Assembly: GCA_963855995.1 (NCBI GenBank) | Contig: OY979717.1 | Span: 51,467,140 to 51,531,139, forward strand | From: Muricea muricata | Lineage: Eukaryota > Cnidaria > Anthozoa > Malacalcyonacea > Plexauridae | Reading direction: 5' to 3' | Length of the DNA stretch: 64,000 nt | Shown here: positions 21,127-52,496 of the stretch, piece after piece | Numbering within the stretch: the first letter of the stretch is position 1 | Layout: each line of letters begins with the position of its first letter | Notes under the pieces: generated by a model | Database searches by the model: none | The model's input: the letters and a program-made list of their open reading frames with translations, nothing else | Told to the model about the DNA's origin: nothing | Made by a program: the position numbers and the translations under genes

Positions 21127-22131
21127 CTATGTCTCGTAGTCTCTGAGCCAAGCTAAAGGTTGTCTTTCACGTTCCGGCCTCGCCCACGGTGGTTCTGCGT
21201 TATTCTGTTCTACATCATCTTCGTCGTGGTCTGATTGTTCATTTGTATCACTTTCCGCTTCGTGTAACTCCTCCTCGTCCCCTTTACCCATTGGTGGTGT
21301 ATTCCCATATAGTTTGCGAAACTTTGATGCATCTCTTGTTATTGACCAGTCACTTGTGCTGGCAGTAATCATTGACCCTTTTAATTTTATGTCAGTTACT
21401 GTTAGTGGGGTGGGATTCAACAAAGTTGTCAATTTACTCTTCTTTTTCTGCATCACCACGACCCGATCTCCGACTTTTAAACGATGCTGTTTGGCCCCGG
21501 TGTCCCTGGAAATTATTTTAGCTTTAGTGTTTACCACTTGTTCTCGGTCAATGAGGTCATCACAGTAGGTCTCCATTGGGAGTTTCGTTCGCATCTCGCG
21601 TCCTCCGTCCATAGCTGCAAATGAGCTTGTCTTTGTTGTCATATGTGGACTGGCTCGGTAAGACTGAAGGAAAGTTGTGGCTGCCTCTCGCATTGGTTTT
21701 CCTTCCACGTGTCCGGCCTGTATGGCTTCTTTCATGCATCTGTTGAATCGCTCCACAGTTCCATTTGCCCGCGGCCACTCTGGTGTTATATGTTTCAGAA
21801 CGGACCCTTGTTTCGACGCGATGAACTTTATCTCGGCTGATTGGAACGGCTGACCATTATCTGACTGACATATCATGGGTATGCCTTTATTGGCAAATAT
21901 GCGTTGCATCACGGTGATGGTGGTCTTTGCCGTTGGTGGTTGCCTGAAGAATGCTATTTCTGGCCAATGACTATATCTGTCGATCATTACAAATATGTAT
22001 TTTCCATCGGGATATGGTCCCTGGAAATCCATTTCGACGAATTGCCAAGGTCCCTTTGGTAGTTCCGATGCTTTGATGGGCTCGTGGTGTCGACTTGGTT
22101 GCATAGCTCGACAAGCGAGACATTCTTCCAT
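21127..22131 (-). CDS. Gypsy element 1 integrase (open 334-aa frame)
   Basis: Retroviral-type integrase core that would insert the element's cDNA. The catalytic triad is visible: the first Asp in VEMDFQGPYPDGKYIF, the second in CQSDNGQPF, and the Glu in WPRANGTVERFNR. The HHCC finger lies partly upstream (EGHQGT, FPGLDAKVERHMEECLAC, about 22100-22230) and is broken by a stop. The C-terminus is acidic, DEDDVEQNN-like, with no obvious chromodomain. This is the longest intact frame of the element. Order gag-pro-RT-RH-IN places it in Ty3/Gypsy. Confidence 0.9.
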   Translation of the reverse strand: MEECLACRAMQPSRHHEPIKASELPKGPWQFVEMDFQGPYPDGKYIFVMIDRYSHWPEIAFFRQPPTAKTTITVMQRIFANKGIPMICQSDNGQPFQSAEIKFIASKQGSVLKHITPEWPRANGTVERFNRCMKEAIQAGHVEGKPMREAATTFLQSYRASPHMTTKTSSFAAMDGGREMRTKLPMETYCDDLIDREQVVNTKAKIISRDTGAKQHRLKVGDRVVVMQKKKSKLTTLLNPTPLTVTDIKLKGSMITASTSDWSITRDASKFRKLYGNTPPMGKGDEEELHEAESDTNEQSDHDEDDVEQNNAEPPWARPERERQPLAWLRDYET

Positions 22132-22262
22132 GTGACGTTCAACCTTGGCATCAAGGCCAGGAAACCAACAGAATTGCCGAATAAATTATTTCGTTTTACC
22201 TGTTCCTTGATGGCCCTCACGGCCCAATTCGATAACGCGTTGTTGTAAGGACTCAGATACGA

Positions 22263-22592
22263 TTAATCGTTTCCCCGGTATATTACTCCATCTACGACAT
22301 GTAGGTCGTGCTTAATTTCTTTCGCCATGAAAGTTCGTCGCCTGCTTCGAACTGCTGGATGGTATTCCACAACGTAGTCGTACTCCTGGATGTCCATAAT
22401 AAACTTCTCGATACGTGGAGGTAAGTCACCGGATGTTTTGTTGAACATCGCTTGCACTGGCTTATAGTCTGTAATCACTTTGAACTGTTGTGCTCCCAAG
22501 AGGTACTTCTTTAACTTCTTGATCCCCCACCAGATGGCACGTGCTTCTCGCTCGGAGTTGAGTAGTTGGATTCTGATGGGCTGAGGCTTCAT
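22263..22592 (-). CDS. Gypsy element 1 RNase H region
   Basis: Continues pol after the reverse transcriptase with a 4-bp overlap and a frame change. NSEREARAIWWGIKKLKKYL and FKVITDYKPVQAMFNK are typical of the Gypsy RNase H. The end runs into the spacer and integrase finger. The overlap could be a decayed frameshift, because functional pol is normally one frame. Confidence 0.8.
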   Translation of the reverse strand: MKPQPIRIQLLNSEREARAIWWGIKKLKKYLLGAQQFKVITDYKPVQAMFNKTSGDLPPRIEKFIMDIQEYDYVVEYHPAVRSRRRTFMAKEIKHDLHVVDGVIYRGND

Positions 22593-23650
22593 GACTTAAA
22601 TACCACAGGGCGGAAACCTTCTACTGCCGACCGTTTCTGTGGAAGGACAGCTCCAAGACCACCCAAGCTTGCATCGACCACTAGTCGCGTCTCCCAACCG
22701 ATCTCGTAGGGTTGTAGTAGTGTGTCTTTCTGTAAGGCCTGTTGTAACTCTTCAAAGGCGTGTTGGTGTTTGTCGTCCCAGTCCCACGTATCTGCTTTCA
22801 ACAGTTCTCGGAGGGGTGCCGTGGTTTTGGCATAATTAGAGATAAATCGCTCGCTAAACCCTGCCATGCCCAAAAGTGATCTGGGCTCTTCCTTACTCTT
22901 TGGTGGTCCTGCTAGGTGTAGCGCTTCGACTTTTGTTGGATCGGGTTGGATGCCTTTCTTGTTGAACGTAAGTCCAACGAATGATATTTCTTCGACATCG
23001 AACTGGCACTTCCCTGGGTTGACCGTCATGCCGTTAGCTTGTAATCTTGCGAGGACAAGTTCCAGTGCTTGATCGTGTTCCTTCACGGACCCAGCTATCA
23101 GAATGTCATCGGCGATGTTAATTTGGTTAGGTATACTCGCAAGGATACTTCGCATTTCGTTCTGTAAAATATCTTGGGCCGATTTTGTGCCGTAGTTCAG
23201 GCGCTTGTGCCGGTACAATCCATCTGGTCCGTAGAAGGTTGTGATCTTGCGTGATTCTGTAGTAAGCTCAAACTGGTGGTACGCCTCGCGCAAGTCCAAT
23301 TTAGAGAATTTCTTCGCGCTCTGAAACTTGTTAATCACGTCTTCCAGCGTAGGTAGTTGAGTGTATGGGCGAAGGATAGCCTTGTTTGCCATCCTCATGT
23401 CCACACATAGACGAATCTGGTCAGTATTTGGTTTCGGCGCGATAACCGTTGGGCTAACCCAGGAATGTACTTCGTCATCTGGGACTTTTTCTATGATATC
23501 CTGATTTATCAAGTATGCGAACTTTTCCTCTGCTTTGGCTGCGAGGTTGTAAGGTACCCGTCTTGGTTTTTGGACAACTGGTGTCACCGTTTGGTCCGTC
23601 ATTATTGTCACTTGTTTGCTTACAGCTTTCCCGATATTCGTACTGAACAC
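22589..23650 (-). CDS. Gypsy element 1 reverse transcriptase (353 aa)
   Basis: LTR-type reverse transcriptase. Conserved blocks are visible: RLCVDMRMANKAILRPYTQLP, SKLDLREAYHQFEL, TTFYGPDGLYRHKRLNYGTK, the catalytic NIADDILI, NPGKCQFDVEEISFVG, and the connection WDDKHQHAFEELQQAL. The catalytic box is IADD in place of the usual Y/F-x-DD; related elements often have SDD there, so activity is uncertain. The frame is open but the upstream protease frame differs. Confidence 0.9.
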   Translation of the reverse strand: MFSTNIGKAVSKQVTIMTDQTVTPVVQKPRRVPYNLAAKAEEKFAYLINQDIIEKVPDDEVHSWVSPTVIAPKPNTDQIRLCVDMRMANKAILRPYTQLPTLEDVINKFQSAKKFSKLDLREAYHQFELTTESRKITTFYGPDGLYRHKRLNYGTKSAQDILQNEMRSILASIPNQINIADDILIAGSVKEHDQALELVLARLQANGMTVNPGKCQFDVEEISFVGLTFNKKGIQPDPTKVEALHLAGPPKSKEEPRSLLGMAGFSERFISNYAKTTAPLRELLKADTWDWDDKHQHAFEELQQALQKDTLLQPYEIGWETRLVVDASLGGLGAVLPQKRSAVEGFRPVVFKS

Positions 23651-23654
23651 ATCG

Positions 23655-24029
23655 CTATGGCTCTCCCATTTCTCTGACGTTGGGCCGTACTTTTTGCGCT
23701 ACTTTGGCAAGGTCTCTTTTCTCGTCGACTTGTTGGACAAGGAATTTCTCGTTGTACTGGACGATCCCAAACTTTCTAAGTAACATTTCTGACAAGAGCG
23801 GGTATGATGATGCTTCCTTTGTGACAATGATGGTAGTGTCCAGGCTCTTTTCACCGGCGCACAATACTGCTTGAAATTGACCAACTATGTCAAGATTTCG
23901 ACTGCTGCCATACGCAAACAATTTGATTGGTGATGGGGACAGGGTTTCTTTCCGCCCCACTTCTTTTTCGTATTGCCGTAGGTGTTGCTTGTCCATAATA
24001 TCTCTTGTGGGACTGTGTCTGGTTGCCAT
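23655..24029 (-). pseudogene. Gypsy element 1 protease region (frameshifted)
   Basis: Aspartic protease region between gag and reverse transcriptase. The gag frame ends in TWQPDTV at the expected DTG/DSG active site, and homology continues in a second frame from RDIMDKQHLRQYEKEV to PNVREMGEP. The frameshift at the active site and Val in place of Gly indicate a dead protease. Confidence 0.7.
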
Positions 24030-32624: not shown

Positions 32625-35600
32625 ATGTTCGACACGGTAAAGGAACATTTAACACGGAAAACATTTGGTTTTGTGGCATACATATGTTCGATTATTCGTT
32701 TTCTTTGTGGCGTAATACTTACGAGGATTGCTTTTGATTTGAAAGAAGAAGAAGCTGACAAGTTTACTTGTTATGGTGCGGTAGAAAGTGCGACACAAGT
32801 CAACAAAGCGTGTTTTACAAGATACCAAGAAGATTACAATGCTCCACTGAGATTTTATATCTTTGTCTTGCTGAGTAGTTGGTTGCCATTAATTGTTGCC
32901 GTTGTTTATTCATTGTGGGTTCGTCGTCGTGTTGAGCAAGTCGATAAAACTCTAAATGAGACACAAGCAGATGACGAAGCTGACAACCAGGTACACATTA
33001 ATGTATTTCGTTCGTATTTTATCCACCTTGTTATCCGTGTCCTATGTGGTGTGCTGCTTGCTGTCCTACAGCATGTGTTACTGTTCCCAAGAGGTTTCGA
33101 TTCCAAGTTTGATTGTAGTCTGCCACTAACAATAAAGTTATCCCCAAAGAATACGAGTGTCAGTCAGTTAAATAATACAGCATCCATTCCATGTGAAAAT
33201 GCATCTGACAAACCCACAATATGGGTGATTATATCTTTATTTAACGCTGTTTTTGCCTTTGTAATATTCCTGGAAATAATTTGTCTTTACCGACGATTTC
33301 CAGTGTGCAAGTATGTAACGGGTAGGAAATGCGATATCGAGTTTATTGTGGTTCATCTGTTACAAAAGAAATATAAGCGCGATGAACCTGAACTAACATC
33401 TGTTAGTATAAACTTGCCACAAGTAGATGGCAGTTCAAACTCAGAACAAAAAACATCTGAGAGCTCAAACGTACGACAACGATTTGTCAGCAAACCAGAA
33501 TCTGTCCGTGCAAACGTACAACAGCAATCTATATCTGTCAGTTCAAACTTGCAACAATCTGTAAACTATTACAAAGGGCAGGTTTTGCTCTCACCTCGTT
33601 CACCTGAGTTAAATCTAGGTACTACTTCAAAAGATGATTTCGACAAATTGTACATTAACCTCATTGTTCACACTGAACGAGCTCCGCATATGTTTTCAAA
33701 TGACATGGAAAGGCATGAAATATACGATGTTTATAGGGAAGTTCCACTAGATTCTATACGTCTTGAAGAAGTAAAAGATTTGTTTTATCCCAATAAAGAT
33801 ACCAAGCAGAAATGTCCTCGCAAAATTCTTGTAATCGGTCGTCCTGGAATTGGAAAGACTGGCCTGACTGAAAAAGTCTTGCGTGATTGGGCCAATGAAC
33901 TTGATCGCTTTTATTGTGATAAAATTGCGTTCTACTTTAAATTTCGATGGTTCAACGGGAATCAAATACCAGTAACCCTTAAGACTTTTCTTCGCAATGG
34001 GACACAATTAAGCAACGAAAAATTTCAAGAAATTTATGAAGAAATAACGACGCATCCAGAAAAAGCAATTCTTATTTTCGATGGTTTGGATGAATTTAAT
34101 AGCGATTTCGATTGCCCGAATGACTGGCCTCCTCCTAACGATCCTGATTTTCAAATGTCTGCAATTTCATTGTTTAGAAAACTTGTTTCTGGACACTTGT
34201 TGCCTGAGGCAACTGTCTTAGTAACAAGCAGACCGACAGCAAACCAGTTTTATTCCAAGTTTAAATTTGATAGAACTGTTGAAGTTATTGGTTTTACTGA
34301 AGGTGGAATCAAGCAATATATCACAAAATTCTGTCAAAGTCATGATAGGGATGATCTTGAACCAAAGATATGGAATCACATTCAGTCCTCCTCAGACTTA
34401 TTAAATTCATGTTACATTCCAGTAAATTGTTGGATCATTGTCACAATCCTGTTTCACAAGCTTAAAGTTTCTGGAGGCGTGCCTCTTGTATCTGTAACAC
34501 TGACTGAACTGTATCAGGCAGCAATAGCCCATTTTGACAAGGAACACTTCAGAAATTTTGACGGACAGCCTCCTAAAGAAGCAACAAAGAAACTGCAGTC
34601 ATTAGCATTCAAAGGGATTGAACCTATGCAACTGATTTTTGACAATGCATCATTTGATGAAGAAATGAAACAATCTGGTTTGTTGAATAGTTTATCCAAC
34701 CCTTATTCTCAGGTTCAGACACAGTTTTGCTTTATTCATCTAACCATTCAAGAATTCCTTGCGGCAAAGCATGTGATCGAAAGCTTTCATCCAGAGAAAA
34801 TAAAAGAGTTTATTTCCTCTCATATTAATAGTGGCAAATGGCATCTAGTGCTGCAGTTTATTGCTGGTCTCTTGGGCAAGGAAATAAGAATGTGGAAAAA
34901 AGACCGCTGCAAGGTCAAGGATTGTGTTTTGGCATTTGCAGAAAGCTTTGAGTTTACATGTGAGGACGGTGAGTTTGATGTTGATGAGAGTTATACTTTA
35001 TTGCTTGTAATGAAATGTTTAAGAGAAGTTAAAGATGAAGAGATTGTTACAGAAGCTTGCGAAGCAACTGCTATAAATGGTATTATTGGTTTAAGAGGAG
35101 GTGATGGTCCAGTTGAGTTGGCCTCAAGTGACTGGTCAGCAGTATTCTTCGTTTGCAAACACATGAAAAATTTAAAAAAAATATATTTGGTCGGAGTTGA
35201 TTTGTTAAGTCCAGAATCTTATCTGGAAGTTTTAAGATTACTGGAACAGAGATGCATAGAAGAACTGACGCTTGTTAGACCAGATTCTGTTCCTGTGGGG
35301 AATATGTTTAAATCATTAATGGCATCAAGGTGTTCATTGAACCACGAGCACAGTCAGCTTGTCAAGTTATTTTTGTATAAGCATGATGTAACTGATGAAA
35401 TTTTGTCCGCCATGTGTGAGTTTTTCAGAAACGGACACGGAATTTTTCTGAAAGAGCTAAGTCTGCTTGCATGTAACATAAATTCACATGAGTTATCCAT
35501 TTTCTGTCAAGTCCTTGACAGTAAACTATGTCCTCAACTTGCATATCTGGACCTTCGTGATAATCACATTGCTGACGAAGGTTTGTCAAAGTTATGTACC

Positions 35601-36185
35601 ACACTTAGTAAGCAGAAACTATTGAAGCTTACTGAGCTGGATCTTCGGACCTGTTCTTTAACTAATGAATGTGTATCTGCACTTTGTGAGCTTTTGACAA
35701 ATGAATGTTGTAGCCTGATTGATTTGTCACTTGGAAGAAATCCAGGCATGAAAGATGAAGGTTTACATATTTTGTGTAAAGATGCCTTAACGAAAGAGCA
35801 TTGTAAACTTGAGAGGTTGGATCTGAGTCATTGTTCATTGACTGTTGACTGTTTACCTGAGCTATGTAATGCATTGCAAGATGAACATTGCAAACTGACT
35901 TGTTTGAAACTATCAGACAACAAGATTACTGATAAAGGTTTACATATGTTATGTGAACTTGCCTTAACAAAAGAGCATTGTAAGCTTGTTGAATTGGAGC
36001 TGAGCAATTGTTCATTAACAGATGGATGTCTACCTGACCTGAGTAAGACACTGCAAAATGAGGATTGCAAGCTTAATAAATTATGCCTAGCTCAAGAAGA
36101 GTTTACTAAGGAAGAAAAAAAGTTCATTCGTAAAATAGCAAAACATGAACACTGTAAAGCCAGAGACTTAGTGATCTATTTTTAG
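32625..36185 (+). CDS. Four-TM connexin-like / NACHT / LRR protein (NLR), 1186 aa, single exon
   Basis: Domains by residue: TM1 about 14-37, extracellular loop 38-72, TM2 74-99, TM3 127-154, loop 155-197, TM4 198-222, linker to about 395, NACHT about 400-560, a helical stretch with FIHLTIQEFLAA (703-714), and RI-type leucine-rich repeats about 850-1155. Walker A is GRPGIGKT (405-412), Walker B ILIFDGLDE (482-490), and sensor-type TSRP is at 534-537. The membrane part looks connexin/pannexin-like: IIRFLCGVIL then EEEADKFTC, NKACF...APLRFYIF, RSYFIHLVIRVL, IPCENASDKPTIWVI. It has two Cys per loop (49, 63; 164, 190) and loop sequons (176, 183, 192). No frameshift. Start is the first ATG of the frame; an upstream spliced exon cannot be excluded. 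Likely a membrane-anchored innate immune receptor; any pore function is inference. Confidence 0.9.
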   Translation: MFDTVKEHLTRKTFGFVAYICSIIRFLCGVILTRIAFDLKEEEADKFTCYGAVESATQVNKACFTRYQEDYNAPLRFYIFVLLSSWLPLIVAVVYSLWVRRRVEQVDKTLNETQADDEADNQVHINVFRSYFIHLVIRVLCGVLLAVLQHVLLFPRGFDSKFDCSLPLTIKLSPKNTSVSQLNNTASIPCENASDKPTIWVIISLFNAVFAFVIFLEIICLYRRFPVCKYVTGRKCDIEFIVVHLLQKKYKRDEPELTSVSINLPQVDGSSNSEQKTSESSNVRQRFVSKPESVRANVQQQSISVSSNLQQSVNYYKGQVLLSPRSPELNLGTTSKDDFDKLYINLIVHTERAPHMFSNDMERHEIYDVYREVPLDSIRLEEVKDLFYPNKDTKQKCPRKILVIGRPGIGKTGLTEKVLRDWANELDRFYCDKIAFYFKFRWFNGNQIPVTLKTFLRNGTQLSNEKFQEIYEEITTHPEKAILIFDGLDEFNSDFDCPNDWPPPNDPDFQMSAISLFRKLVSGHLLPEATVLVTSRPTANQFYSKFKFDRTVEVIGFTEGGIKQYITKFCQSHDRDDLEPKIWNHIQSSSDLLNSCYIPVNCWIIVTILFHKLKVSGGVPLVSVTLTELYQAAIAHFDKEHFRNFDGQPPKEATKKLQSLAFKGIEPMQLIFDNASFDEEMKQSGLLNSLSNPYSQVQTQFCFIHLTIQEFLAAKHVIESFHPEKIKEFISSHINSGKWHLVLQFIAGLLGKEIRMWKKDRCKVKDCVLAFAESFEFTCEDGEFDVDESYTLLLVMKCLREVKDEEIVTEACEATAINGIIGLRGGDGPVELASSDWSAVFFVCKHMKNLKKIYLVGVDLLSPESYLEVLRLLEQRCIEELTLVRPDSVPVGNMFKSLMASRCSLNHEHSQLVKLFLYKHDVTDEILSAMCEFFRNGHGIFLKELSLLACNINSHELSIFCQVLDSKLCPQLAYLDLRDNHIADEGLSKLCTTLSKQKLLKLTELDLRTCSLTNECVSALCELLTNECCSLIDLSLGRNPGMKDEGLHILCKDALTKEHCKLERLDLSHCSLTVDCLPELCNALQDEHCKLTCLKLSDNKITDKGLHMLCELALTKEHCKLVELELSNCSLTDGCLPDLSKTLQNEDCKLNKLCLAQEEFTKEEKKFIRKIAKHEHCKARDLVIYF

Positions 36186-39854: not shown

Positions 39855-40735
39855 GACATCTTGAATTCCTGATATTCAAGAAAGAACAAGAAAACGACGG
39901 AGTCGGTGATATTTCGTCTTTATTCCATAGACATTGTCAAACCAATAGATTAGGTTACAAACAGGCTATGCTATATATCTACAAAGTTGGCAAGCTGTTG
40001 TTAGCCAATCAGGTGAAGAACATTGATGCTAGGAATGCGTGGGTAGATGTAGCGTTACAAAAATAAAGATAATTGTTTGCTGGCTTTGAGTCGACAATTT
40101 AACTCTGGCAATTTACGTTTTATGAGTAGCGCTTCTAGTATAAGCAACTGATTAGGATTGTTATATTTACATGAATACAAGATTTTAGAATTGGTGTAGA
40201 CCAAGGAAGCAGGACAATGCATTTTGTCGGAAAACAAACTCTTCAGAGCTGTCAAGATCCGGAAATGTATTTAAGTTGGCTAGGTAGAGAGCGTCAGGAC
40301 AGTTGAGTAAGTGTTGTGTGATTGCGCTAGTTTTGTAAGAGTTGATGTTAGCATGTTCAGAAAGTCTCGTTTCCAAAGAGCGTGCAGTTTTGCTTATACA
40401 AGAATGACCGCATCCAGGGCGGCACGAAAATTCATAAATAACATTGGCCTTATTAGAATCCGGAATTTTATCTTTGTTAGGTAGAAAGAAAGGTGTCTTT
40501 TTTGTTTGGTAAACGACAATGATTTTAACATGAATTTTGAGACTTCGGCGTACTTTCCGGATCAGGTTTTTAACGAGGAATTCACCTTGTCTTCCTAAAT
40601 ACGGTAATTTTAACCAGATTTTGGGTACCGAATCATCATTCTCATTATTTCCATGTAATGTGATGTTGTTATCATTACAAATTCTACTGAAGGTATGTTG
40701 ATGACACTTTACTCTTAATCCGGCCAAGCGATATC
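39855..40735 (-). mobile_element. Penelope-like element 2, minus arm (GIY-YIG)
   Basis: An open frame at 40727-40185 reads from the RT tail (KIWLKLPYLGRQGEFLVKNL) without interruption through KIIVVYQTKKTPFFLPNK into the nuclease: NVIYEFSCRPGCGHSCISKT, RSLETRLSEHANINSYKTSA, ITQHLLNC. It continues in another frame to RKLPELNCRLKASKQLSLFL. The 3' UTR runs to about 39855 and matches 45505-45705 of the plus arm. The catalytic Y of YIGKT is replaced (CISKT) in this copy. This arm shows what the plus arm looked like before its insertion. Confidence 0.85.
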
Positions 40736-40737
40736 CA

Positions 40738-41199
40738 ATTCGTGTTAGACAAATTGAACAGTTTCGACAAAAACTTAAAGTTTACCTTCGATGACTTTCC
40801 GGACGGCCATGTGCACTTTTTAGATTTAAAAATTACTAAGGACTACATTGATATTTTCCGCAAAACACTCACACCGGCCAGTACACAAACTTTTCTAGCT
40901 TCGAACCTTTCAGCCGTAAAGTTTCTTGGATAAATTCTTTATTTTTTCGCGTTTCTAAGATTTGTTCTAACGCTACGCTATTTAATGATCAAATCAACAA
41001 GATTAAACGTTTTATGTCCTGGAATGGTTTTCCGACTAAAGTAAGAAATTTCCTCATCAAGAAACTCAAAGCCAAACTCTGTAATGATAACATCACATTA
41101 CATGGAAATAATGAGAATGATGATTCGGTACCCAAAATCTGGTTAAAATTACCGTATTTAGGAAGACAAGGTGAATTCCTCGTTAAAAATCTGAATTAT
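40738..41199 (+). mobile_element. Penelope-like element 2, plus arm, RT tail
   Basis: Reads LDKLNSFDKNLKFTFDDF, HVHFLDLKI, then after frame changes RFMSWNGFPTKVRNFLIKKL and NDDSVPKIWLKLPYLGRQGE, the C-terminal RT and connector region. It is head to head with the minus arm across about 40730. It breaks at 41199 where the 3.8-kb insertion begins, and its remainder is at 45035-45705. Confidence 0.85.
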
Positions 41200-41262: not shown

Positions 41263-41993
41263 GAAAACCAGGAACACGAAAAGCCGGAATCTGTAAAACC
41301 AGGAACATGAAAAGCCGGAATCTGTAAAACCAGGAACATGAAAAGCCGGAATCTGTAAAACCAGGAACATGAAAAGCCGGAATCTGTAAAACCAGGAACA
41401 TGAAAAGCCGGAATCTGTAAAACCAGGAACATGAAAAGCCGGAATCTGTAAAACCAGAAACACGAAAAGCCGGAATCTGTAAAACCAGGAACACGAAAAG
41501 CCGGAATCTGTAAAACCAGGAACATGAAAAGCCGGAATCTGTAAAACCAGGAACATGAAAAGCCGGAATCTGTAAAACCAGGAACATGAAAAGCCGGAAT
41601 CTGTAAAACCAGGAACACGAAAAGCCGGAATCTGTAAAACCAGGAACATGAAAAGCCGGAATCTGTAAAACCAGGAACATGAAAAGCCGGAATCTGTAAA
41701 ACCAGGAACATGAAAAGCCGGAATCTGTAAAACCAGGAACATGAAAAGCCGGAATCTGTAAAACCAGGAACACGAAAAGCCGGAATCTGTAAAACCAGGA
41801 ACACGAAAAGCCGGAATCTGTAAAACCAGGAACATGAAAAGCCGGAATCTGTAAAACCAGGAACATGAAAAGCCGGAATCTGTAAAACCAGGAACATGAA
41901 AAGCCGGAATCTGTAAAACCAGGAACACGAAAAGCCGGAATCTGTAAAACCAGGAACACGAAAAGCCGGAATCTGTAAAACCAGGAACATGAA
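41263..41993 (-). repeat. 31-bp minisatellite array, about 24 copies
   Basis: Unit GGAATCTGTAAAACCAGGAA + CATGAAAAGCC. Copies differ almost only at one site, AACACG versus AACATG. Because 31 is not a multiple of 3, all three minus-strand frames stay open for about 250 codons; these are not genes. A five-copy inverted array of the same unit is at 44845-44990. Confidence 0.95.
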
Positions 41994-42779
41994 AATTGAG
42001 TTTAACTCACGGCTGTAACATCGCAACGTTCAATTTTTTTATTCCTAAAAAATATACGTTTCTTATGGCGTTTGCACGCGCGGTTTAGAAGCTTCCTGAA
42101 TTCAATGAAAGGCGGTTATGGTTATCAATGAAAGGCGGTTAGGTTATATGTGAACCTGTATGCGTGGGATAACACAGACCCCTGATTAAAGATATAATTT
42201 ATGTATTTATATCTTCATGTTAGTTCTATTTTCACGTTTTTGTTTAATGTGAAAATTGTTTGCGCTGACAAGCGCAAATGCGCAAATGCACACGTGTTTT
42301 AATTATGCCGCTTTTATGATTATCTTCTGAAATTATGCGAGTAATATATTCAAATAAAGTGAATTGTTCAACCGCGCCTTCCCCTATATGTATTAAGCAT
42401 GAACCACGGAACGTTGCCAAAAAAGCAACATTGATACGACTTGATCAGCCAATCCCGTTAAACTAGCCGTATGTTCTGGGCTATACTGAAATCATGAAAT
42501 GTCGGCAAACTCATATTACAAAAGATTTCACACCAATAGTTCAGGCTTGTTACGGTGATAATAACACACTTGCTGTAAAACACCTAACCCAGGACTCTAG
42601 GTTATTGATTGAAAACGCCAAATAACAAATGCAGAGCTTTCTTCAAAGAATAAAATTCGCTGCCAGCAGGCGTACATTTACGCTCAGTAGTAAAATCATT
42701 GACCGCAAATTATGTGTGAGATGATTACTTTGTTGTATATGTGTCACGTTTGGATTAACGGAAAACTTTTTAGGATGTT

Positions 42780-43918
<1,139 letters not shown>

Positions 43919-44844
43919 ATATATGGTTTCATAAATATGCTTAGCAAAACAAAGTTTGCAAGCACGTTGAAATGTATATATCTGCGATATGGAATATAAA
44001 GAGTGTGTGATAGAGAATAGTAGAGAATACCTTTTTTCCGTATCCTTTATACGGATATATTCGTGCATGGATACGGAGATATTTTAGGTCATTCAGATCA
44101 TTCCGCATTCACGGCGCAAATTCTCCTTGCTGTGTTGCGAGTTGTTTATCGAGCATTTGTCCGGTTGTTTTTATCAGGAAAAATATATGTATCCAATTTT
44201 GAGTCCAATTTTGGGTCTAATTTTGAGTCCAATTTTGGGATCCAGTCCAGGGTCCAGTCCATGTTTTGTACTATGCCATTAAATTACTGGTAAAAACTTG
44301 ACATTACTAATTCGTTGTTAATGCATTTCCATGCACTTGTACTCAATTTCCTGTTAAATCTGCAGGAAATGTTTAATTTACGCCTAAAATTTTGATCAAT
44401 AATATTCATGTATCATTTCGTCTCTGATGACTAATCATGAATCGTTACATATGAGCTTATGGCGATTGAATTTTTTGGGAGAAGGTTAGACTTTGTCAAA
44501 ACTGAATTGAGCTATGCGGTATTCTGTTTGGAATTGGTATAGAACCAGATTCTCCATGTTACAGATTCTGCATAGCAGGGTAGATTCCCCGTTTTAAAGA
44601 TTGCCCATACGAGTCCTCGATTCCCCGAGTCCCTGTTTTAAAGATAGCCGCCATAACACAACAGTATATATATGTGTATATTTTATGTTTTTAATACGAA
44701 GAAACATGACAGACTTTATACCCCGCATTTAATTGTAAATTTTCATATATTTGTACGTAGACACTGGTTTTCCATTTATCACGATATCATTAAAAATTAT
44801 TTGAGTTATTTGGTCATTTTGCTAAGAGCTTACGAAATGCTTTC

Positions 44845-44990
44845 ATGTTCCTGGTTTTACAGATTCCGGCTTTTCATGTTCCTGGTTTTACAGATTCCGG
44901 CTTTTCGTGTTCCTGGTTTTACAGATTCCGGCTTTTCGTGTTCCTGGTTTTACAGATTCCGGCTTTTCGTGTTCCTGGTTTTCTCGTTCC
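44845..44990 (+). repeat. 31-bp minisatellite, inverted right array (5 copies)
   Basis: Five copies of TTCCTGGTTTTACAGATTCC + GGCTTTTCATG in opposite orientation to the 41263-41993 array. The outermost three copies carry the CpG form (CGTG), the innermost the TG form. Followed by the TCGTTCCTCGTTCCGTTCCC terminal tract. Confidence 0.9.
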
Positions 44991-45034
44991 TCGTTCCGTT
45001 CCCCGATTCCCCGTTCCTTGTTTTACAGATAGCC

Positions 45035-45705
45035 TTAAAATTATTGTCGTTTACCAAACAAAAAAGACACCTTTCTTTCTACTTAACAAAGATAAATTTC
45101 CGGATTTTAATAAGGCCAATGTTATTTATGAATTTTCGTGCCGCCCTGGATGCGGTCATTCTTATATAGGCAAAACTGAACGCTCTTTGGAAACGAGACT
45201 TTCTGAACATGCTAACATCAACTCTTACAAAACTAGCGCAATCACACAACACTTACTCAACTGTCCTGACGCTCTCTACCTAGCCAACTTAAATACATTT
45301 CCGGATCTTGACAGCTCTGAAGAGTTTTCTGACAAAATGCATTGTCCTGCTTCCTTGGTCTACACCAATTCTAAAATCTTGTATTCATGTAAATATAACA
45401 ATCCTAATCAGTTGCTTATACTAGAAGCGCTACTCATAAAACGTAAATTGCCAGAGTTAAATTGTCGACTCAAAGCCAGCAAACAATTATCTTTATTTTT
45501 GTAACGCTACATCTACCCACGCATTCCTAGCATCAATGTTCTTCACCTGATTGGCTAACAACAGCTTGCCAACTTTGTAGATATATAGCATAGTCTGTTT
45601 GTAACCTAATCTATTGGTTTGACAATGTCTATGGAATAAAGACGAAATATCACCGACTCCGTCGTTTTCTTGTTCTTTCTTGAATATCAGGAATTCAAGA
45701 TGTCT
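45035..45705 (+). mobile_element. Penelope-like element 2, plus arm, GIY-YIG and 3' end
   Basis: Continues the element interrupted at 41199: LKIIVVYQTKKTPFFLLNK, NVIYEFSCRPGCGHSYIGKT, RSLETRLSEHANINSYKTSA, ITQHLLNCPDALYLANLNTF, ending RKLPELNCRLKASKQLSLFL at 45504. Here the nuclease motif is intact (YIGKT) and the frame is open. The 3' tail to about 45705 matches the minus arm's tail. A hairpin-plus-GAAA motif lies at about 45619-45648. Confidence 0.88.
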
Positions 45706-51512: not shown

Positions 51513-52496
51513 TATTATTATGCTTCTATATCCTGAGTTGCGTACTGGTAGAGAAGGATTGGGTGGCGCCTGCTCGATTGCTAGTCGCATGGATTAGTCT
51601 TGCCGGCCATGTATTTCATGGTGTACTAGAAATCTTGTACTTTCAGGCGGTGGCGTTCGATACGAGCATTGCTCTTCTTGCTGCCGTTGTAGATGAGGAT
51701 CAGTGGCTGACGGTCTGCATATAAGTCAAACGGGATACCAAGCAGATAGTAGCCGTTGATAATCATGCCCCGCGATTGGGCAAAAGATTCTTTTTCCATT
51801 CTCGAGTACTTCTGTTCACACGGTGTAAGGGCTCTACTAGCATAGTCAATGGGGATCCATGCATGTTCCCTGCGTGGTTTCTTGATATAGGCTGCAGGAT
51901 GCAATTCCTTCTGGTCATGCATCGGTTATATGGAGGGTTTTCAGTGTGGGTCGAATGGTCTCAGTGCTGTGCTACTGGTCATAGTCTGAAGAATTTCTTG
52001 CTATGCTTTCTGGCATTGGTCAGTCCAAAGGAATTTAGTGTTCTTTTTGGTGAGGTATCTCAGAGGCTTGGCGATCTGTGCATATGCATCTCTGTGTTGC
52101 ATTGAGCTGTCAAGCTTGGAGAAAGCTCTTGACATTCTGGGGCGGTCTCGCGTCCTCAATAGCTTGGATCTTTTTTGGATTTGCCGATATGCAGGACACT
52201 GAGGTCGTCCAAAGGGCCATTTTTCTCGTCAAATAGCGAGACCTTTCTCCTAAGGCAGGCATCTAGGTTTGCTTCGTGTTCTCCTGGTATCCGTCTCCAT
52301 ACCAAAATGTTGTCGTGGATGGACGTGTAGCCAGGCAAGTCGGCTAGTTCAGTAGTTGAGGAGACCCCAAAGAACTGAACCTTGAATCGATGTAGCCCCT
52401 CGTAAGTTTGAAATGTACCAATACACCGTGAATCTTCTTCTACCAGGCCAATCTGGTGATATCCATTACCCATGCATGTCCATATCTGAGAATCTG

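Follow-up and report, generated by a model that had tools for sequence, protein, structure and literature searches.

A 64-kb window of DNA from Muricea muricata, the whole stretch analysed here, contains one open reading frame (ORF) in which a predicted connexin-like membrane domain of four helices is followed by a NACHT NTPase and leucine-rich repeats (LRR). This architecture is genuine and conserved. We propose that the product is an NLR-type immune sensor that uses a channel subunit of connexin fold as its effector domain, an assignment that we consider fairly probable. The part of this model that comes from the analysis itself comprises the fused ORF, the conservation of the family, the intact nucleotide-binding motifs, the hypervariability of the LRR, the cysteine pattern and the predicted connexin-like fold.

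Gene and domain architecture

The ORF starts with ATG and continues for 1186 codons with zero internal stops (Table 1); an in-frame TGA lies upstream, separated from the ATG by three codons. A sequence-only reading of this DNA had described a single unbroken frame of 1186 amino acids and had placed four N-terminal helices with two cysteine-bearing loops ahead of NACHT and LRR. Both descriptions hold, as the frame is exact and hydropathy, alignment and Pfam recover the same order. Since the complete protein lies within one ORF, no intron has to be assumed to connect the membrane domain with NACHT, and the join is independent of any gene model. Within the 64 kb, tblastn at E up to 1 found no second copy of the gene. 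The neighbourhood of the ORF holds retroelement remnants with reverse transcriptase, RNase H and integrase domains, so that the window resembles a repeat-rich animal genome.

Table 1. Features of the ORF, by residue of the protein and by nucleotide position in the window
Feature	Residues	Position	Strand	Basis
Whole ORF: connexin-like 4TM domain, linker, NACHT, helical domains, LRR	1-1186 (1186 aa)	32625..36185	+	ORF reading, Pfam
Short N-terminal segment before TM1 (place of the connexin N-terminal helix)	1-13	32625..32663	+	Predicted helix from residue 2
TM1	~14-39	32664..32741	+	Hydropathy peak 14-32; model helix 2-46
Loop 1, putatively extracellular by connexin topology	~40-73	32742..32843	+	C49 (32769-32771), C63 (32811-32813)
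TM2	~74-98	32844..32918	+	Hydropathy peak 79-97; model helix 74-112
TM2-TM3 loop, putatively cytoplasmic by connexin topology	~99-126	32919..33002	+	AlphaFold2 model
TM3	~127-151	33003..33077	+	Hydropathy peak 135-153; model
Loop 2, putatively extracellular by connexin topology	~152-197	33078..33215	+	C164 (33114-33116), C190 (33192-33194), N-glycosylation motifs
TM4	~198-222	33216..33290	+	Hydropathy peak 201-219; model helix 196-224
Linker: variable 251-340, conserved pre-NACHT block 341-398	223-398	33291..33818	+	Column entropy, alignment
NACHT NTPase	400-570	33822..34334	+	PF05729 E 3.2e-24; Walker A GRPGIGKT, Walker B ILIFDGLDE
NLRC4-type helical domain HD2	705-810	34737..35054	+	PF17776 E 2.1e-07
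Ribonuclease-inhibitor-type LRR	~831-1186	35115..36182	+	LRR_6 E 1.7e-14; sequence and fold matches

The four N-terminal hydropathy peaks mark out four helices; a fifth, weaker peak (residues 592-610) falls inside the NACHT-associated helical region. The AlphaFold2 model places strands at residues 161-164 and 188-191 of loop 2, and its pLDDT drops below 50 at residues 1-6 and 8-10 of the N-terminal segment.

The NLR half is recognizable by several measures. NACHT scores 86.1 bits against a PF05729 cut-off of 26.7, and the translation contains both nucleotide-binding motifs that had been picked out by eye. The match to PF17776 (NLRC4_HD2) reaches 31.9 bits, slightly below its cut-off of 33.1. 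The LRR, likewise claimed beforehand, is confirmed by the LRR_6 match and by fold matches to ribonuclease inhibitor and NLRP proteins. A sequence search of the PDB returned NLRP3, NLRP1, NLRP14 and ribonuclease inhibitors, and the full-length AlphaFold2 model (mean pLDDT 59.9) matched NLRP3 and ribonuclease-inhibitor folds in a search that chiefly covered residues 423-1186. Across 121 sequences, mean entropy in the LRR was 2.66 bits at 24 strand-motif positions against 0.66 at 273 other columns, a contrast equalled in none of 10000 permutations; the test used ten motif matches, one of which (residue 1109) is probably helix and not strand. Strand-motif positions of such LRRs are exposed, and their hypervariability in the alignment looks like that of a diversified recognition face.

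Conservation of the fusion

A search with residues 1-250 found 129 homologues at E up to 1. All 120 of those listed (58-96% identity) carry a Pfam NACHT, so that the order of four helices followed by NACHT, which the sequence-only reading had suggested looking for in relatives, is conserved at gene level. Two profile searches with overlapping results reached further and returned 28 and 55 proteins, down to 27% identity. Divergent members, with approximately 33-50% identity in the N-terminal domain, also have NACHT, and the distant members bearing it include P0153, P0154, P0159, P0162, P0165, P0170, P0176 and P0178. Two relatives come with organism names, both octocorals: P0172 from Dendronephthya gigantea is a 138-aa piece without NACHT, and P0176 from Paramuricea clavata is partial, with NACHT. 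A GxPGxGK[TS] P-loop is present in 136 of the 178 proteins collected. This wide conservation of the join points to an old fusion rather than an artefact of one assembly. Divergence in the N-terminal domain and in NACHT was correlated (Mantel test, r 0.45, none of 2000 permutations as high), a value inflated by close paralogues and only consistent with a shared history of the two aligned parts. Short members, P0137 for instance, may be truncated gene models, and we do not claim stand-alone forms. PADLOC gave zero matches for three family members.

Predicted fold and Pfam matches of the N-terminal domain

The full-length AlphaFold2 model was poor at the N-terminus, and this domain was folded alone, with divergent relatives, by template-free AlphaFold2 on an alignment of 48 sequences. 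The best PDB matches of the resulting model (pLDDT 75) are connexins; among viral proteins, nothing matched it at E 0.001. The N-terminus is likely to have a connexin/large-pore fold. Pannexin and LRRC8 folds follow close behind the connexins, and the fold alone does not single the latter out.

Pfam Connexin (PF00029) matched residues 30-165 of the protein. The E-value was 9.4e-5 with residues 1-231 as query, 4.8e-4 with residues 1-251 and 0.0016 with the whole protein. Of the 178 proteins, two sets were compared with Pfam, namely 18 representatives, which include the window's domain, and another 20 members. Connexin matched in 15 of the former and 16 of the latter (7/10 at E up to 1, 9/10 at E up to 0.1), never above the Pfam cut-off among the matches printed, the best score being 29.6 bits against 31.3. 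The database's precomputed annotation, made at its own threshold, assigns PF00029 to 7 of 120, 3 of 28 and 10 of 55 proteins, the 10 including the 3. Unrelated membrane families match as well, for example UPF0182 in 8 of the 18 representatives. Because the Connexin matches are sub-threshold and accompanied by such families, specificity was tested by shuffles (see below).

These results bear on the strongest alternative, in which the four helices are one more case of the large-pore fold at large (pannexin/innexin, LRRC8), without being nearer to connexins, and owe their connexin likeness to convergence at the level of the fold or to very deep ancestry. Such a domain would still provide an NLR-gated pore, one closer to LRRC8 with cytosolic LRRs, and the closeness of the pannexin and LRRC8 fold matches is in keeping with this alternative. 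Yet Connexin appears in most members scanned, whereas Innexin, Pannexin_like and CALHM are absent among the Pfam matches listed for the N-terminal domain (scans at E up to 10, 1 or 0.1, HMMER filters on). Single-sequence profile alignments against PANX1 and LRRC8A likewise gave probabilities below 1, although several single connexins were equally weak. We regard this alternative as unlikely.

Conservation within the membrane domain

Residue conservation was read from a 150-row alignment comprising the window's domain, 120 proteins of the first search and 29 later ones, which were trimmed manually to the domain or cut at residue 270. Cysteine is kept at C49, C63, C164 and C190 in 148, 148, 148 and 147 rows, respectively; rows lacking one have gaps there, except for a single Ser. 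Loop 1 contains two cysteines in 148 rows, and loop 2 does so in 143. TM3 has near-invariant Y131, H134, R138, G142 and Q149, and E217 is near-invariant in TM4. The cues from which the sequence-only reading had recognized a channel fared unequally in this alignment. The block leading into TM4 is kept as C-x(3-9)-[DEN]K in 142 rows. APLRFYIF at TM2 is retained in its P74 (146 rows), F77 (140) and Y78 (137), but its Arg is found in only 74. An Arg in TM1 is not typical of the family, with R25 being Arg in 26 rows and R34 in 4.

Could the four helices be a mere membrane anchor for a cytosolic NLR that signals through its NACHT platform and forms no pore? Pore activity is a prediction, and residues 1-10 are modelled at low confidence, both of which leave room for this reading. 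An anchor would nevertheless have no need of two loops with four fixed cysteines, and the near-invariant polar or charged residues of TM3 (H134, R138, Q149) and the channel-type predicted fold also speak against it. Furthermore, conservation in TM2 and TM3 matches that of NACHT (mean entropy of 0.53 for TM2, 0.44 for TM3 and 0.62 for NACHT), and segment means from residue 1 to TM4, at 0.44 to 0.83, are comparable to the NACHT value. On this balance, an anchor without a pore seems distinctly improbable.

Profile comparison with connexins

An hhalign comparison of 128 members with six connexins gave a probability of 80 and a score of 43.5, and none of 100 shuffles scored above 29.3. With the 150-row alignment the probability rose to 91 and the score to 50.9 over 176 columns (E 1.1e-6, as a single comparison). 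When the connexin columns were shuffled within each helix or loop, 300 trials averaged 16.9 and peaked at 31.2; the profile in reverse scored 14.8. That the similarity is a chance outcome of hydrophobic helices is thus very improbable, as no composition-keeping shuffle reached 50.9, helix order and all four cysteines align with connexins, and a template-free fold search put connexins first and found nothing at E 0.001 among viral proteins.

The profile signal is uneven, with probabilities of 93.5 for 22 divergent members alone, 31.6 for the 128 close ones and 57 when Cx45 is left out. Searches of the PDB were weaker. The single N-terminal domain had zero matches at E up to 10, the close-member profile retrieved three soluble proteins only (E 0.3-0.9), the sole match of the divergent-member profile was a connexin at an insignificant E of 3.2, and plain HMM (HMMER) searches yielded no significant connexin.

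The cysteines offer a further point of comparison. Connexins have three per extracellular loop, and in the Cx26 structure C53-C180 forms the outer and C64-C169 the inner disulfide. In the profile alignment, C49 and C63 fall on loop-1 cysteines 1 and 3, and C164 and C190 on loop-2 cysteines 1 and 3. The middle pair is therefore missing from both loops together, as would be expected if the loops were linked as in connexins. The likeness to gap-junction-type channels, first noted from the letters, finds backing in the sub-threshold Pfam matches, the profile comparison with its shuffles and the predicted fold. Absence of any channel-family match together with an unlike fold had been set beforehand as grounds for giving it up; what emerged were Connexin matches and a connexin-like monomer model. 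A specific kinship with connexins is a tentative and nearly even proposition.

Discussion

The domain resembles connexins (PF00029; Cx32, Cx26, Cx36, Cx43) in its four helices, the short N-terminus before TM1, the two cysteine-bearing loops, the loop-1 helix and loop-2 strands of the model, its best fold matches, and the motifs E...F.C at the first loop-1 cysteine and C..[DE]K before TM4. It differs in having two cysteines per loop, loop-2 N-glycosylation motifs and a fusion to NACHT and LRR. The remainder of the protein resembles animal NLRs (NLRP3, NLRP1, NOD2, NLRC4) in its NACHT, HD2-like domain and ribonuclease-inhibitor LRRs. However, N-terminal effectors of animal NLRs are typically PYD, CARD, BIR or death domains, whereas the effector here is an integral-membrane, channel-type domain. 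LRRC8 volume-regulated anion channels are not known to contain NACHT and have LRRs of another class; this family has NACHT, and Pannexin_like is absent among its listed Pfam matches. In plant CC-NLRs, the pore arises from the N-terminal coiled-coil domain upon activation, unlike the resident four-helix channel-type domain found here. The analogy with the resistosomes ZAR1, Sr35 and NRC2 would lie in an NLR that turns channel on activation; plant NLR rings are cation channels (PMC9581773), and that of NRC2 is a hexamer (PMC11540030).

We propose that the first 225 residues form a four-helix subunit in the plasma membrane, with two putatively disulfide-linked extracellular loops, and that approximately six subunits might assemble into an undocked hemichannel whose NACHT and LRR parts would extend into the cytosol. 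Binding of a ligand to the hypervariable LRR face could free NACHT to exchange nucleotide and assemble into a ring, and this assembly might build or open the pore. Efflux of K+ or ATP, or influx of Ca2+, could then act as a danger signal or lead to cell death. The sequence-only reading had inferred an NLR that directly gates or forms a large-pore channel, a function that we consider plausible for this protein. NLRs are ring-forming proteins. Connexin hemichannels have six subunits (PMC8769644), and by analogy the symmetry of an NLR ring may match that of a connexin hemichannel.

An undocked hemichannel seems somewhat likelier than a gap junction, given N-glycosylation motifs in loop 2 of 145/148 rows, against 2/149 in loop 1, and a published argument about glycans and docking. 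The paper in question argues that docking of pannexins is blocked by glycans on the extracellular loops, but also allows that glycosylated innexins may make up gap junctions in invertebrates (PMC8769644). We do not take the loop-2 motifs as a firm sign of an undocked channel, as the same motif occurs in the TM2-TM3 loop in 131/150 rows.

No connexin-NACHT fusion is described among the open-access PubMed Central titles and abstract starts listed. In a NACHT survey of 15 cnidarians, 35 Pfam domains are recorded in combination with NACHT, and the main text does not contain the word connexin (PMC8260672). Its cut-off was 10^-4.9, a value exceeded by 10 of the 16 E-values that Connexin obtained in the 20 further members. 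In mammals, connexin hemichannels are reported to act beside the NLRP3 inflammasome as separate proteins. If pore and sensor are indeed one chain in this family, NLR-to-channel coupling would become directly testable.

The named relatives of this family are cnidarian, a group in which connexins are reported absent (PMC8769644). Welzel and Schuster (2022) report no confirmed connexin-like protein in non-chordates, mention one unconfirmed urchin transcript, and propose a de novo origin of connexins among early chordates (PMC8769644). The present family, if the kinship is true, would be a connexin relative outside chordates, where that dedicated survey accepted none (PMC8769644). It is possible, though we put it more hesitantly than the kinship itself, that connexins are no de novo invention of chordates, and that the cnidarian lineage already had a connexin-fold effector of NLRs in which one chain senses intracellular danger through its LRRs and opens its own plasma-membrane hemichannel. 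A connexin-fold domain with two loop cysteine pairs only would show what in the connexin design was acquired together with docking.

Membrane topology

N-glycosylation motifs occur in the loop between TM2 and TM3 in 131 of the 150 rows of the membrane-domain alignment, which comprises the domain from the window and 149 homologues. Under a connexin topology this loop lies on the cytosolic side, so either these sequons are unused or the connexin topology itself is in question. A well-conserved hydrophobic stretch, LLNSCYIPVNCWIIVTILF (residues 592-610), falls within the NACHT-associated helical region and is probably a buried helix rather than a membrane segment.

Repeats and mobile elements

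Tandem repeats and retrotransposon pieces are also found in the window (see table). Three minus-strand frames are open across the longer minisatellite array. The two further ORFs listed share a long stretch and may be a Penelope-like element. The plus-strand member has a weak GIY-YIG match in Pfam (9.7e-4, under the cut-off), and no Pfam match at E 0.001 was found for the minus-strand member.

Features of the window and their positions
Feature	Position	Strand	Remarks
Retrotransposon piece	21130-23698	-	reverse transcriptase, RNase H, integrase domains (the two pieces taken together)
Retrotransposon piece	51629-51925	-	
TM2-TM3 loop	32919-33002		
Linker region compared	33375-33644		
Hydrophobic stretch	34398-34454		
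LRR	35115-36182		
ORF	40188-40781	-	
ORF	44794-45501	+	
31-base minisatellite	41264-41995		23.6 copies
31-base minisatellite	44841-44982		4.6 copies, opposite orientation to the other site
TA dinucleotide array	42780-43013		117 copies, long

Variation within the family

In the LRR, variation among family members clusters at the strand-motif positions of the repeats, the pattern that diversifying selection would be expected to give. The linker between TM4 and NACHT also varies. In the alignment of homologues, with P0061 and P0112 as the members noted, a short motif resembling PVSSNLQQE is repeated in tandem over a long stretch of the linker in some family members and is nearly absent from it in others. 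The length of the tether joining TM4 to NACHT therefore differs greatly among paralogues.
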